Shown one piece after another: positions 17,194 through 23,184 of a DNA stretch of 64,000 bases (position 1 is its first letter; every line of letters starts with the position of its first letter). A program made the translations under genes and the position numbers. Source of the stretch: Desulfarculus baarsii DSM 2075 (GTDB lineage: Bacteria > Desulfobacterota > Desulfarculia > Desulfarculales > Desulfarculaceae); assembly GCF_000143965.1 (NCBI RefSeq), contig NC_014365.1, positions 1,391,501 to 1,455,500 of the forward strand, in the 5' to 3' direction. A model generated the notes under the pieces. The model was not told where the DNA came from, did no database searches, and was given only the letters and a program-made list of their open reading frames with translations.

Positions 17194-17904
17194 CTACGCC
17201 GCGGCCAAGGCGCGCTCGGCCATCTCCGCCAGCCAGAAATGCAACGGCAGCATGCCGCTCCAGCGCTCCAGGCAATAATCCACCAACGCCGCCGACCGGG
17301 CCGCGTCGGGCAATGGCTCATCCACGCCCACCCACAGGCCGGTGTAGCGCGCCAGCGCCGCGCGGGGGTGATCCGGGTCGACGCCACGCGGAACACGCTT
17401 GAGCTTTTGCCCGTCGACCACGCCGCCCCGCGCGCCGACCTGGGCCAAGGCCCGCTCCAGGGCCGGCCCACGTTGGGGGTGCAGCACATCGCTGCGGTAT
17501 TGTTCGATCTGGGCCCTGGAAAAACCGTAAATCCCCGCGCCCAGCATCAGCCGGCCCGGCTCGAAATGCAGATAAAACCCCGAGCACTCCATGCGCGGCC
17601 CCTGGCCCTCCCACAGCCACAGGCCCAGATGATCCTTGAACGGGCTTTTGTCACGGGCAAAGCGCGTATCGCGAAAAATTTTGAAAATCGACTTGTTGAC
17701 CATGGGCTCGGCGTGGATGCCCGGGACCATCTGGGCCATGGGCGGGCTCAGTTCGGCCACCAGGGCCTTGGCCGGCCGCAGGATCAGCTCGTCGTATTGT
17801 TTGCGGTGCTCCTCGAACCAGGGCTTGTTGTTGTTCTGGGCCAAGGCGCGGAAAAAGTCCTCGGCCTGGAGGCTGAAGCCGTTGAAGCGATCGGTTGGGC
17901 TCAT
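17194..17904 (-). CDS. DUF2461 family protein
   Basis: A 236-aa protein of the DUF2461 (TIGR02453) family; function unknown. Characteristic stretches are FFRALAQNNNKPWFEEHRKQY, IFRDTRFARDKSPFKDHLGLW, and GFYLHFEPGRLMLGAGIY. The ATG at 17904 is preferred to the longer frame from 17967, since AAGGA lies nine bases upstream and the family normally starts close to this point. It is convergent with the GtrII-like gene, 23 bp apart. Confidence 0.88.
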   Translation of the reverse strand: MSPTDRFNGFSLQAEDFFRALAQNNNKPWFEEHRKQYDELILRPAKALVAELSPPMAQMVPGIHAEPMVNKSIFKIFRDTRFARDKSPFKDHLGLWLWEGQGPRMECSGFYLHFEPGRLMLGAGIYGFSRAQIEQYRSDVLHPQRGPALERALAQVGARGGVVDGQKLKRVPRGVDPDHPRAALARYTGLWVGVDEPLPDAARSAALVDYCLERWSGMLPLHFWLAEMAERALAAA

Positions 17905-18036
17905 GGGCTGGCGTCCTTTGCGAGGGTGGTTTGCGGGCCACGACGCCTTGAAGTATGAGCCCGACATTGGATATCGGTCAAGGGCCGGCCGCCGCGAACG
18001 GCTCCTGGGCGCGGTCGCGGCGGCCGGTGAGGGCGC

Positions 18037-20697
18037 TTAGAACGCCTGTTGGTAAACCTCCAGCACGGCCATGGGGTCGGCCACGGGCCGGGGATTGGTC
18101 AGGTTGGAGGGATCGACCAGGGCGTGCATGGCGCACTCGGCCAGGGCCTCCTCGGGCACGCCCATGGCCTTGAGGCTCATGGGAGCCTCGACGGCGCGCA
18201 TGAGCTGCTCCAGGGCGTCGGCCCCGGCCAGGGCGGCGTCACGCGGGGCGATGTCCAGCACGTTGACGCCTAGGGCGGCGGCGATCTCGACCAGGGCCTC
18301 GGTGGCGTGATCGACGTTGAAGCGCATGACCTTGGGCAGCAAAATGCCGCAGGCCGCGCCGTGGGGCACGCCGTATAGGGCGCCCACGGTGTGGGCCATG
18401 GCGTGGGCCAGGCCGATGCCGGCCACGGCGAAGGCCTTGCCGGCCACGGTGGCGGCCACCTGGAGGTTGCTCATGACGCGCAGGTCGCGGTCACCGCTGG
18501 CGGCCTTGGGCAGGTTGCGGGCGATGAGCCGGATGGCCTGCAAGGCGTGACCGTCGCTGATGGGGTTGGCGGTCTTGCTCATCATGGCCTCGCAGGCGTG
18601 GGTCATGGCGTCCATGGCCGTGGCCACCATCAGCCCGGCGGGCAGGTCGGCCACCAGGCAGGGGTCGAGCACGGCCACCTGGGGGTAGATGTAGGGGTCG
18701 GCGATGAAGACCTTGCGGCTGAGACCCTCGTGGCGCACCACCGAAACGGCCGTGGCCTCGCTGCCGGTGCCCACGGTTGTGGGCACCACGATGTGCGGCG
18801 TGACCGGCTTGGTCAGGCGGAAAAAGGCGTAGTGATCGACGGCCTTGCCGCCCTGATCGAGAATCACCGTCACCCACTTGGCCGTGTCGATGACGCTGCC
18901 GCCGCCGACGCTGACGATCAGGTCGGCCTTGGCCGCGCGGGCGGCGTCGGCGGCCGCGTCGACGGTGGCCAGGCTGGTGTCCTGGGGGATGTCGCTGAAG
19001 ACGCCCACGCAATAGCCGCCCAGGGCGGCGATGACCTTGGCGGCCAGGCCGACGGCGAGCACGCCGGCGTCGGTGAGCACGAAGGCCCGCTGGCAGCCCA
19101 TGCGCGCGATGTCGGCGCAGATGGAGGCCACCGCGCCGGGGCCGCAGTTGACCTTGGTCGGGGTGATGTATTGGAACGAGGCGGCCTTGGGCTGGTCGAG
19201 CAGCAACTGGAAGCCCATGTGGGCCGAGGGTTCGGCCGTGGCCGCCACGTGCACGCGCTTGACCTCGGTGTATTCGGCCAGGCCGTGGTGGCCCAGCTCG
19301 CGGCCGACGCCCGATTGCTTGTAACCGCCAAAGGGGCAGAAATCGCCAAAGGCGTGGTAGTTGTTGACCCACATCGTGCCGGTGCGCACGCCGGCGGCGA
19401 TGCGTTCGGCCCGGCCGGTGTCGGTGGTCCAGACGCCGCCGGCCAAGCCGTAGATGCTGTCGTTGGCGATGGCGATGGCCTCGTCGTCGTCGTCGAACTT
19501 GATCACGCTGACCACCGGCCCGAAGATCTCCTCCTGGGCGATGCGCATTTTGTTGTCGACGCCGCCGAAGATGGTCGGCTCGTAAAAGAAGCCGCCCTCC
19601 AGGCCGGGCACCACGGCCCGCTTGCCGCCGCAGAGCAGCTCGGCGCCTTCGTCCTTGCCGATCTGCACATAGCTTTCGACGGTGTTGAGCTGGGTCTGGC
19701 TGACCAGGGGGCCCATCTGGGTGGCGTAATCGAGCTGGTAGCCGATGCGGATATCCTTGACCCGCGCCAGATAACGCTCCATGAACTGGTCGTAGATCTT
19801 GGCGTGCACCAGCAGCCGCGTGCCCGATTCGCAGACCTGGCCGCCGTGGAAGAACGTGCCGTAGAGCCCGCCGTCGACGGCCATGTCCAGGCGGGCGTCA
19901 TCGAGGATGATGTTGGCCGACTTGCCGCCCAATTCCAGGGTCACTTTTTTGACCGTATCGGAGGCCAGCTTCATGATCTGGCGGCCCACCTCGGTGGAGC
20001 CGGTGAAGGCGATCTTGTCGACCTCGGGGTGGGTGCAGAGCACGCGGCCCAGCGCGCCGCCCGGCCCGGCGATGACGTTGACCACGCCGTCGGGGATGGG
20101 GCTTTCCTTGACCACCTCGGCCAGGATCAGCGCCGAAAGGGGCGTGTTGCTGGCGGGCTTGAGCACGATGGTGTTGCCCATGATGATGGCCTGGGCCACC
20201 TTCCACAGGGCCATGGTCAGGGGGAAGTTCCAGGGGATGATGCCCACGCACACGCCCATGGCCTCGCGGCGCACGTAGTCACGGCCGGGGAAAAACGGAT
20301 TGCCGCTGGGCTGGAGCTCCTCGGTCCAGGGGAAGCTCTTGGCCGCGTAGTAGGCGAGGTTGCGCATCATCGATGCGCCCAGCAGCACGTCGGTGGCGGT
20401 GCGGGCGACAACGCCGCCGGAGTTCATCGACTCGGTCATGGCCAGGCGCACGCCGTGGTTGGTCATACGGTCGGCCAGCTCCATCACCAGCCGTGAGCGC
20501 TCCATGGGCGGCATTTGGGGCCAGCCCGAGCGCTCGAAGGCCCGGCGGGCGGCCATGATCGCCGCCTCGGCCTCGGCCGCGCCCGCCTGGGCCACGGTGG
20601 CCATGGGCAGGCCCGTGCCGGGGTCGATGGTCTCGAAGGTCGCGCCGTCGGCGGCTTCGACGAACTGGCCGTCGATAAATAGCTTGTAATGTTCCAA
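18037..20697 (-). CDS. Fusion of NAD-dependent aldehyde dehydrogenase and iron-type alcohol dehydrogenase
   Basis: An 886-aa two-enzyme protein. The first roughly 490 residues are a classical aldehyde dehydrogenase, with NAD site IIPWNFPLTMALWK and FTGSTEVG, general-base Glu in VTLELGGKSAN, and nucleophile Cys in GGQVCESGTRL. After a short linker, the remaining 370 residues are a group III alcohol dehydrogenase with GGGSVIDTAK, PTTVGTGSEAT, and metal ligands in MDAMTHACEA and GLAHAMAHTVGALYGVPHGA. The Cys-Glu pair marks a hydrolytic (acid-forming) aldehyde dehydrogenase, so this is not AdhE, whose aldehyde half is CoA-acylating. The likely role is alcohol to carboxylate via a channelled aldehyde. 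Start TTG at 20697 has GGGAGG six bases upstream; ATG at 20721 has no ribosome site. A LysR gene is divergent. Confidence 0.9.
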   Translation of the reverse strand: MEHYKLFIDGQFVEAADGATFETIDPGTGLPMATVAQAGAAEAEAAIMAARRAFERSGWPQMPPMERSRLVMELADRMTNHGVRLAMTESMNSGGVVARTATDVLLGASMMRNLAYYAAKSFPWTEELQPSGNPFFPGRDYVRREAMGVCVGIIPWNFPLTMALWKVAQAIIMGNTIVLKPASNTPLSALILAEVVKESPIPDGVVNVIAGPGGALGRVLCTHPEVDKIAFTGSTEVGRQIMKLASDTVKKVTLELGGKSANIILDDARLDMAVDGGLYGTFFHGGQVCESGTRLLVHAKIYDQFMERYLARVKDIRIGYQLDYATQMGPLVSQTQLNTVESYVQIGKDEGAELLCGGKRAVVPGLEGGFFYEPTIFGGVDNKMRIAQEEIFGPVVSVIKFDDDDEAIAIANDSIYGLAGGVWTTDTGRAERIAAGVRTGTMWVNNYHAFGDFCPFGGYKQSGVGRELGHHGLAEYTEVKRVHVAATAEPSAHMGFQLLLDQPKAASFQYITPTKVNCGPGAVASICADIARMGCQRAFVLTDAGVLAVGLAAKVIAALGGYCVGVFSDIPQDTSLATVDAAADAARAAKADLIVSVGGGSVIDTAKWVTVILDQGGKAVDHYAFFRLTKPVTPHIVVPTTVGTGSEATAVSVVRHEGLSRKVFIADPYIYPQVAVLDPCLVADLPAGLMVATAMDAMTHACEAMMSKTANPISDGHALQAIRLIARNLPKAASGDRDLRVMSNLQVAATVAGKAFAVAGIGLAHAMAHTVGALYGVPHGAACGILLPKVMRFNVDHATEALVEIAAALGVNVLDIAPRDAALAGADALEQLMRAVEAPMSLKAMGVPEEALAECAMHALVDPSNLTNPRPVADPMAVLEVYQQAF

Positions 20698-20858
20698 ACT
20701 GGCCCTCCCATCAATGGACATAAGAATTTATTTGACCGATCGACCGGCCAATCGGCCCGGCGGGGGCGGCGTCGCCCATGGGCCGTGGCGCGCCCGAAGC
20801 TGGCTGGTTGCGGGTTTTCACGAGGCGCACAAATACTATGCAAAAGGAGGGAGCTATA

Positions 20859-20902
20859 ATTCAAATGAATAATTTTCCGGCTTATGATAACCAAAAGTTA
20901 TC
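20859..20902. promoter_or_regulatory. Two palindromes in the divergent promoter region, LysR operator candidates
   Basis: GATAAC-CAAAA-GTTATC (20886-20902) is a perfect inverted repeat that fits the LysR-family T-N11-A box. A second palindrome, ATTCA-AA-TGAAT (20859-20870), lies 27 bp (2.6 helical turns) to the left, towards the fusion gene. The pair resembles the recognition and activation sites of LysR regulators. Confidence 0.6.
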
Positions 20903-20922
20903 GCAAGCATGGGAGCGCGCCG

Positions 20923-21870
20923 ATGATCGACGTCCGTCAACTGAGCCACGCGGCGGCCCTGGCCAAGTTTGGCAACTATCGCCGGGCGGCCCAGGCCCTG
21001 TTCATCACCCAGCCGGCCCTGACCAAGAGCATCCAGAACCTGGAGCGCGAACTGGACGTGCGCCTGTTCGAGCGCCGCGCCGACGGCGTGACGCCCACCG
21101 AGTTTGGCGCGGCCATCGTGGCGGCGGCGGCGCGCATCCTGCCCCAGATCGACGACATCGAAAACGAGATGGAGCTGCTCAAGGGCCTGGGCAAGGGCCG
21201 GCTGAACGTGGGTTGCGATCCGTTCTTCGCCGAGGTCTACATGGCCCCGGCCCTGGGTTCGCTTTTGGCCCGGCACCCCAGCTTGCGCATCCGCGCCGAG
21301 GTCATCGCCTGGGACGTGATCCTGGAGCTTTTGCTGGAGCGCAAGCTGGACGTGGTCATCGGCGTGCCCACCGAAAATCTCGATCCAAGCCTGAGTTTCA
21401 TCAAGATCGACGGCTTTCCCGAGATAACCTATTTCTGCCGGCCGGGGCACCCCTTGCTGGGCCGCGGGCCCATCGCGCCGCGGGAGCTAGCGCCTTTTCC
21501 TACCGTGGGCATCAAAACACACCCATGGTGGCTGAAATGGTTTGCCGAATCCATCGATGAAGCCGTCGAAAGCGAGGCCGTCACCCACCGTCACTTCGTG
21601 CAGTGCGACAATTTGAGCGTGATCATGACCATCGTCAAATCCAGCGACGCCATCAGCGGCGCGGCCAGCGGCGTGGTCGAAAAAGACATCGTTGCCGGCC
21701 GCTTGCGCCGCCTGCCGCTGATCCTGCCGCCCTATCCGCCGCTGTCGTTTGGCCTGGCCTACCTCCGCGAGCGCATCATGGCCCCGGCGGCCCGGGCGCT
21801 CATCGACGAACTGGTGGCCCTGGCCCAGAGCCTGGGCTGGGCGGTCGACGCCCCGGGCTCCCGGCCCTGA
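20923..21870 (+). CDS. LysR family transcriptional regulator
   Basis: A 315-aa regulator. The winged helix-turn-helix is at residues 1-60 (MIDVRQLSHAAALAKFGNYRRAAQALFITQPALTKSIQNLERELDVRLFERR). The periplasmic-binding-like effector domain spans about 90-300 (GRLNVGCDPFFAEVYM, VVIGVPTENLDP). The ATG at 20923 has GGGAG seven bases upstream. It is divergent from the aldehyde/alcohol dehydrogenase fusion and most likely controls it in response to an alcohol, aldehyde or acid; the effector cannot be read from sequence. Confidence 0.93.
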   Translation: MIDVRQLSHAAALAKFGNYRRAAQALFITQPALTKSIQNLERELDVRLFERRADGVTPTEFGAAIVAAAARILPQIDDIENEMELLKGLGKGRLNVGCDPFFAEVYMAPALGSLLARHPSLRIRAEVIAWDVILELLLERKLDVVIGVPTENLDPSLSFIKIDGFPEITYFCRPGHPLLGRGPIAPRELAPFPTVGIKTHPWWLKWFAESIDEAVESEAVTHRHFVQCDNLSVIMTIVKSSDAISGAASGVVEKDIVAGRLRRLPLILPPYPPLSFGLAYLRERIMAPAARALIDELVALAQSLGWAVDAPGSRP

Positions 21871-21936: not shown

Positions 21937-23184
21937 TTAGAATCCGATGGCCAACTGCGTGGTGAAGAGGTCTCTTTCGTCCTCGGTGTCTTGGAACTCG
22001 CCGTGGAGGTACTCGACGCTGAGGGTGGTGTCGGGCAGGAACATCCAGGAAGCGCCGACGCCGAACTGGTGTTCGGGCTCCTTGTCGCCCAGGTTGTCGC
22101 TGCCCTCGTAACGGGCGGCGAAGGTCCATTCCTCGAAGGGCATGTAGGCCAGTTCGATGTTGTAGGCGTAGGGCTTGCCGTCGCTGTCGGTCATGTAGTC
22201 CAACTCGCCGGCCTTGAAGTCGTCGATGGCCGAGATGTACTCGGCGGTGAAGGCCACGCACATGTACTGGGCGCTCAACATGGCCGACCAGCCGGCGACC
22301 AGGTCTTGCAGGCTCTGATCGACGACGTACTCGCTGAGGTTGCCGCTGGCGATGTTGTTGGTGTAGGCCAGGCCGAAGTTGAGGTCGACGTCCTCGCCGA
22401 GGGCGCCTTCGGGGGCGTCGAACTGGGCGCGGGCGTAGAAGGTGTTGATGTTGTTGTCGGGGGCGTCGCTGGATTCATGGACGTCGGAGTTGAAAATGCC
22501 CACGCCCACGTTGAACCAGTCCTGGGCCCAGCCGACCTCGGCCGCGGTGGCCTGGGTCTCGAAGACATTCTGGGTGATGGGGTCGCTGATCAGGTTGCTT
22601 TCGAACAGGCCGATGGCCGGGTACATGCGACCGCCCAGGAAATAGGCCGGGATGTCGTCGGTCTGGCCCAGCAGGATGTAGGCCTCGTCGATGTTCATGG
22701 GGTCGGTGTCGCCCTCTTCATAGAGCATGTGCACCAGGCCCTTGACGTATTTGTTGATGTCGGCCTCGATGAACACCTCGGCGGTGGCCAGGGTGAAGTC
22801 GCTCTCGGAGGCGCTCTTGCCGTGCTTGGGCTTGAAGTTGGAGTAGGCGCCCTCCAGCTCGACGGCGCCGTAGATCTTCAGGCGCTTGCCCGCGTCGCTG
22901 AGCAGCCCGCCCGCCACTTGCTCGCCCTTGGCCAGTTGGGCCTGCTCGGACATCTTCAGCGAATGCGCGCTGGTCGCCTGAGCCTCCTGGGCCGCCTTTT
23001 GGGCGTCGGCCGCCGAGGTGTTGGCCTTTTCCAGGGCCTGCTCCAGGGTCGAGACGCGCTCCTTGAGGGCGCGCAACTCATTCAGCAGGGCCTGGGTGTC
23101 GGCGTCGGCGGCGAAAGCGGCCGCCGGGGTCACCAACATCGCGGCCGCCGCCAGCCAAGCCGCGACTTTGAGTTTTACCTTCAT
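21937..23184 (-). CDS. LbtU-family outer-membrane siderophore porin
   Basis: A 415-aa secreted protein. Signal peptide MKVKLKVAAWLAAAAMLVTP ends near residue 25 (AFAAD). A coiled-coil stretch follows (about 30-90, LLNELRALKERVSTLEQALEK). The rest is an acidic, aromatic-rich beta-barrel ending in the C-terminal Phe usual for outer-membrane proteins (LFTTQLAIGF). The barrel pattern (VEVFIEAD-type strands, YILLGQTDDIPAYFLGGRMYPAIGLFESNLI) is that of LbtU, the legiobactin receptor of Legionella; family members in Deltaproteobacteria are uncharacterised. It is the last gene of the feo run, 39 bp after the 42-aa protein, with GGAGAAG as ribosome site. Confidence 0.82.
   Translation of the reverse strand: MKVKLKVAAWLAAAAMLVTPAAAFAADADTQALLNELRALKERVSTLEQALEKANTSAADAQKAAQEAQATSAHSLKMSEQAQLAKGEQVAGGLLSDAGKRLKIYGAVELEGAYSNFKPKHGKSASESDFTLATAEVFIEADINKYVKGLVHMLYEEGDTDPMNIDEAYILLGQTDDIPAYFLGGRMYPAIGLFESNLISDPITQNVFETQATAAEVGWAQDWFNVGVGIFNSDVHESSDAPDNNINTFYARAQFDAPEGALGEDVDLNFGLAYTNNIASGNLSEYVVDQSLQDLVAGWSAMLSAQYMCVAFTAEYISAIDDFKAGELDYMTDSDGKPYAYNIELAYMPFEEWTFAARYEGSDNLGDKEPEHQFGVGASWMFLPDTTLSVEYLHGEFQDTEDERDLFTTQLAIGF

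Follow-up and report, generated by a model that had tools for sequence, protein, structure and literature searches.

In a 64,000-nucleotide stretch of the genome of Desulfarculus baarsii DSM 2075 (hereafter the window; positions 1391501–1455500 of a one-contig genome of 3,655,731 bases), the bdhE gene encodes an aldehyde dehydrogenase (ALDH) half of hydrolytic ancestry fused to an iron alcohol dehydrogenase (ADH) half. The protein belongs to the BdhE family, retains the catalytic residues of both halves, and most likely acts as an NAD-dependent oxidase that would convert alcohols to free acids by way of a channelled aldehyde. Fusions of an ALDH with an iron ADH were already described as BdhE in 2025, hence the architecture is not new and the novelty of the observation is largely gone.

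Gene, domains and active-site residues

Read on the plus strand, 18037–20721 is broken by stops, and the open frame lies on the minus strand (Table 1). Homologues of BdhE open with M(D/E)HYKLF, and most have a length of about 886 aa. Because a TTG at 20697 would give a product of this usual length and has a GGGAGG upstream (GGGAGG-GCCAGT-TTG, with six bases between GGGAGG and TTG), it is probably the translation start, rather than the ATG at 20721.

Table 1. Features of the bdhE locus, in window coordinates
Feature	Position	Strand	Basis or remark
bdhE, fused ALDH and iron alcohol dehydrogenase	18037..20721	minus	894 codons from ATG, single stop-free frame
Candidate true start, TTG	20695..20697	minus	886 aa product; GGGAGG at 20704-20709
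ALDH half, residues 21-490	19252..20661	minus	Pfam PF00171 (Aldedh)
Nucleophile Cys297 codon	19831-19833	minus	alignment
General base Glu263 codon	19933-19935	minus	alignment
Linker, residues about 491-520	19162..19251	minus	alignable across all 27 BdhE sequences
Iron alcohol dehydrogenase half, residues 521-893	18043..19161	minus	Pfam PF00465 and PF25137, alignment with FucO
LysR-type regulator gene	20884..21870	plus	divergent from bdhE; Pfam HTH_1 and LysR_substrate; true start perhaps further in
DUF2461 gene	17194..17967	minus	downstream of bdhE, same strand as bdhE

Pfam places Aldedh at residues 21-490 (546 bits, whole model covered), Fe-ADH at 521-687 (140 bits) and ADH_Fe_C at 699-893 (169 bits). 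The initial annotation, which had proposed an ALDH joined to an iron ADH, was right in this respect, as both domains are complete in one minus-strand frame, and the 894 codons give the BdhE layout, in which a single chain longer than 700-800 aa carries an ALDH followed by an Fe-ADH. Its further claims, that the nucleophile Cys and general-base Glu are retained and that the ADH metal ligands are complete, also stand. Twenty-seven full-length BdhE sequences were aligned (the window protein, those from 25 other loci, and PDB entry 9LDL); Cys297, Glu263, Asn165, Glu398, Asp704, His708, His773, His777 and His787 are invariant (27/27). Cys297 lies within GQVCESGTR and Glu263 within VTLELGGKS, and with Asn165 and the second Glu, Glu398, they complete the hydrolytic-type residue set; the metal ligands, identified by alignment with FucO, are Asp704, His708, His773 and His787. 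Judged by these residues, both active sites of the window protein are intact. Loss of the general-base Glu marks CoA-acylating enzymes, and our alignment panel agrees: the residue is absent from E. coli AdhE, as the initial annotation had stated of the AdhE ALDH half, and from E. coli EutE and three CoA-acylating methylmalonate-semialdehyde dehydrogenases (MMSDH), and is present in E. coli AldA, AldB, BetB, FeaB and PuuC. In ALDHs this Glu activates water for hydrolysis of the thioester (PMC8160307).

The cofactor sites of the two halves differ in what they suggest. Asp551 of the ADH half, typical of NAD-dependent members, is kept. At position 191 in the NAD site of the ALDH half, the window protein has Ser, and BdhE as a whole Ser or Thr, where many NAD-specific ALDHs have Glu, so this half may accept NADP+. 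Cys791 (codon 18349-18351, minus strand) is a further mark of the family. It belongs to an HGxxCG motif that follows the last metal ligand throughout the 27 BdhE sequences, at a position where AdhE and all single-domain iron ADHs of the panel that align there have HGxxN. A short insertion with an FPW motif (residues ~131-147) is common to BdhE and absent from single-domain ALDHs. The family's description names interface loops specific to BdhE and missing from its single-domain sisters, but its text gives loops 3 and 4 no residue numbers (PMC12454647). A monomer model of the window protein reached a mean pLDDT of 78.7 but was of low confidence across residues 454-519 and near the active-site segments; as its whole-chain TM-score against 9LDL was 0.48 and its domain orientation is unreliable, we make no claim as to whether the active sites face each other.

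Relationship to BdhE, AdhE and unfused dehydrogenases

BdhE (bifunctional dehydrogenase E) was described as an ALDH-ADH fusion with an origin separate from that of AdhE, and 45,555 genomes yielded 47 members (Konno et al., Nat Commun 2025; PMC12454647). Its cryo-EM structure, 9LDL, is a ring-shaped tetramer in which a tunnel runs from the ALDH site of one subunit to the ADH site of another (PMC12454647). A sequence search of the PDB with the window protein returned one full-length match far above the rest, 9LDL from Halomonas eurihalina, with 1118 bits and an alignment that runs from residue 10 to the C-terminus; the ADH half alone matches it with 400 bits over 391 aa. The two proteins are about 57% identical end to end over 886 columns, against the at least 40% over both halves by which Konno et al. 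selected BdhE members (PMC12454647), and on this ground we assign the window protein to the described family. It shares with 9LDL the ALDH-ADH order, the length of 886 aa, the catalytic residues, the metal ligands and the clade in both half-trees. It differs in lying on the Desulfarculales-side branch, separate from the 9LDL subclade, and in adjoining a LysR gene found at no other bdhE locus compared.

A maximum-likelihood tree was built for each half separately. BdhE, 9LDL included, is monophyletic and apart from AdhE in both (100/100 each). In the ALDH tree, the BdhE clade lies inside the hydrolytic ALDHs, a 100/99 branch separates AdhE/EutE from it, and MMSDH is also apart from BdhE; long reference branches make the deep order uncertain, with the separation from AdhE unaffected. 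In the ADH tree, the BdhE half stands apart from AdhE, FucO and EutG. Profile scores point the same way. The best named ALDH models are hydrolytic (BADH at 545 bits, StyD, HpaE and ExaC), against 258-260 bits for the AdhE and MMSDH models; the betaine-aldehyde dehydrogenase equivalog (TIGR01804) gives 544.7 bits, below its cut-off of 668.6, and the AdhE equivalog (NF010378) 257.7 bits against a cut-off of 951. AdhE identity is thus ruled out by score, tree and active-site residues. The initial annotation had taken the ALDH half to be of hydrolytic rather than AdhE-like type, and had named grouping with AdhE-type acylating enzymes as the result that would count against this; no such grouping appears, and the tree position, the retained Glu and the AdhE score (258 vs 951 bits) bear the assignment out.

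The likeness to E. coli AdhE (NF010378/PRK13805) lies in domain order, size, two-step alcohol/aldehyde chemistry and Fe-ADH ligands; AdhE differs in its CoA-acylating, Glu-lacking ALDH half, in its separate branches in both trees and in forming helical spirosomes. Hydrolytic single-domain ALDHs (TIGR01804 BADH, StyD, ExaC, AldB) have the same Cys, Glu, Asn and second Glu, and supply the best ALDH model and the best single-domain PDB matches of the window protein. However, they are unfused and lack the FPW insertion, and the window protein misses every equivalog cut-off. Group III iron ADHs (FucO, NAD-methanol dehydrogenase, 1,3-propanediol dehydrogenase) share the fold, the metal ligands and the NAD-site Asp, and differ in having the Asn of HGxxN in place of Cys791. 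We considered reading the substrate from the nearest characterised ADHs, but these (NAD-methanol, 1,3-propanediol and lactaldehyde reductases) are all below equivalog cut-offs, and therefore no substrate is named. The nearest single-domain ALDH to BdhE keeps the Glu, and its gene adjoins one for an Fe-ADH, the two unfused genes standing in the order ADH-ALDH (L168:2566-5409, minus strand); this pair may resemble the state that preceded the fusion.

Distribution and genomic surroundings

A scan of genome contigs recovered 17 near-complete fusions, of which most come from sulfate-reducing deltaproteobacteria and MAGs. At E < 1e-200, the fusion was found in 9 of 63 whole genomes of the class and in 9 of 395 sampled across the phylum, a sparse distribution that agrees with the one reported by Konno et al. 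(PMC12454647). None of 12 BdhE genomes (the window genome and 11 others) contains an AdhE above the NF010378 cut-off, in a search that matches E. coli as a control. Only one other Aldedh match (65 bits) was found in the window genome. Its frame, beside a NadD-like gene, reads by eye as the gamma-glutamyl phosphate reductase ProA, which leaves bdhE as the sole catabolic ALDH gene found there.

No metabolic operon is common to the 28 non-redundant bdhE loci, so the substrate cannot be read from context, and the attempt to derive it from conserved neighbours was dropped. The LysR and DUF2461 genes of the window (Table 1) have no homologues beside bdhE in the 27 other loci; the LysR gene was accordingly dropped as a conserved bdhE regulator, and it is its position that may suggest a link to bdhE. 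Further along the window (21937-23184, minus strand) is a gene for a 415-aa protein with a signal peptide and a coiled-coil N-terminus, which has by eye the look of an outer-membrane porin and no Pfam match at 1e-5.

Elsewhere, bdhE adjoins varied regulators, a protein of 740-760 aa or an SCP2-domain protein. Its commonest partners are the first of these two proteins, 740-762 aa long and encoded divergently (8/28 loci), and the SCP2-domain protein, encoded downstream (7 loci); neither lies beside the window bdhE. The former is encoded 180-550 bases upstream of bdhE in L005, L006, L013, L154-L157 and L159 (e.g. L013:5363-7600, minus strand); it has no Pfam, NCBIfam or PDB sequence match and is possibly a regulator. 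The latter, a small protein of sterol-carrier type, directly follows bdhE at L152 (7064-7477, minus strand) and at six other Desulfarculales-side loci. At L160 (7170-11871, plus strand), the most divergent fusion (53% identity) has a citrate synthase-like gene before it and a galactarate-dehydratase-like (UxaA type) hydrolase gene after it.

Reaction and product of BdhE

In the oxidation that we propose for the window protein, the C-terminal Fe(II)-ADH would use NAD+ to oxidise a primary alcohol, and the resulting aldehyde would pass via the ALDH-ADH contact of a neighbouring subunit (the dimer unit of the ring tetramer) to the ALDH site. There, Cys297 would attack it, with hydride passing to NAD(P)+, and water activated by Glu263 would hydrolyse the thioester to a free carboxylic acid. 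The tetramer and channel are carried over from 9LDL, and a channelled aldehyde is plausible given the tunnel that joins the two sites in this relative. Hydrolysis in place of CoA transfer, the oxidative direction and the cofactor are predicted from residues only. A hydrolytic ALDH half is suggested by the conserved general base and the hydrolytic ancestry, that is, by Cys297, Glu263, Asn165 and Glu398 in all 27 sequences and a BdhE clade inside the hydrolytic ALDHs, and the proposed mechanism as a whole is also favoured by the alignment of the ADH half with FucO, with metal ligands and Asp551 kept.

The published biochemistry pulls the other way. Konno et al. treat BdhE as AdhE-like, with ethanol oxidation and acetyl-CoA reduction (PMC12454647), and the H. 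eurihalina enzyme, which keeps the same Glu as the window protein, oxidised NADH with acetyl-CoA at a rate below that of AdhE (PMC12454647). Taken at face value, this assay, the sole one published for BdhE, argues for a CoA-linked reaction, and the main rival to a free-acid product is accordingly a BdhE that interconverts alcohol and acyl-CoA as AdhE does, with Glu263 retained without preventing thiolysis. Across 25,877 species, BdhE and AdhE are also reported never to occur together, which was read there as redundant function (PMC12454647); the absence of AdhE from our 12 genomes would fit this, as would the acyl-CoA synthetase and acyl-CoA dehydrogenase genes near a few relatives. However, the synthetases are equally compatible with a free acid, and the ethanol oxidation was assayed with CoA present, as listed in the methods, with no CoA-free control named in the main text, which likewise makes no mention of the active-site Glu, the cysteine or hydrolysis (PMC12454647). 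As the Glu is absent from all acylating ALDHs compared and present in all hydrolytic ones and every BdhE, and the ALDH tree sets BdhE in the hydrolytic part, we consider a CoA-acylating BdhE unlikely.

More doubtful still is a role as an aldehyde dismutase or detoxifier, in which both sites would act on the same aldehyde in opposite directions, yielding acid and alcohol, recycling NAD(H) inside the complex and clearing a toxic aldehyde without net redox change. The joining of a hydrolytic ALDH to an NAD-linked Fe-ADH, together with the reported tunnel, would suit such a role, as would the reported reduction of aldehyde by the ADH half of BdhE (PMC12454647), the position of bdhE outside any conserved catabolic operon and its being the only ALDH gene found in the genome besides proA. 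Yet any pairing of an ALDH with an ADH could dismutate an aldehyde, and the sequence holds no feature that requires it. With Ser191 in its NAD site instead of the Glu found in many NAD-specific ALDHs, the ALDH half may also draw on a different cofactor pool from the ADH half. An assembly or frameshift artefact joining two genes, which the initial annotation had allowed for, or a fusion with one dead half, is scarcely credible and found no support: the gene is a single frame in a genome assembled as one contig, 25 other loci and 9LDL show this fusion with its linker, the active sites of both halves are invariant, and dN/dS of 0.07-0.32 in four pairs of relatives indicates purifying selection on both halves.

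Whether the free-acid reading extends from the window protein to BdhE as a whole is an evenly balanced matter: the family would then consist of CoA-independent, self-channelling alcohol-to-carboxylate oxidases that gain two NADH per alcohol and release the free acid, with their functional convergence with AdhE only structural. Konno et al. present BdhE as a convergence with AdhE in structure and function (PMC12454647). On the product of BdhE, acid or acyl-CoA, the published biochemistry and the sequence stand in a testable conflict within a young family. If the ALDH half is hydrolytic, the convergence would be one of architecture and channelling, not of chemistry, and the energy of the aldehyde, kept as acyl-CoA by AdhE, would be spent by BdhE with release of the acid. 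Alcohol metabolism would then be read differently in those sulfate-reducer genomes in which BdhE is the only catabolic ALDH.
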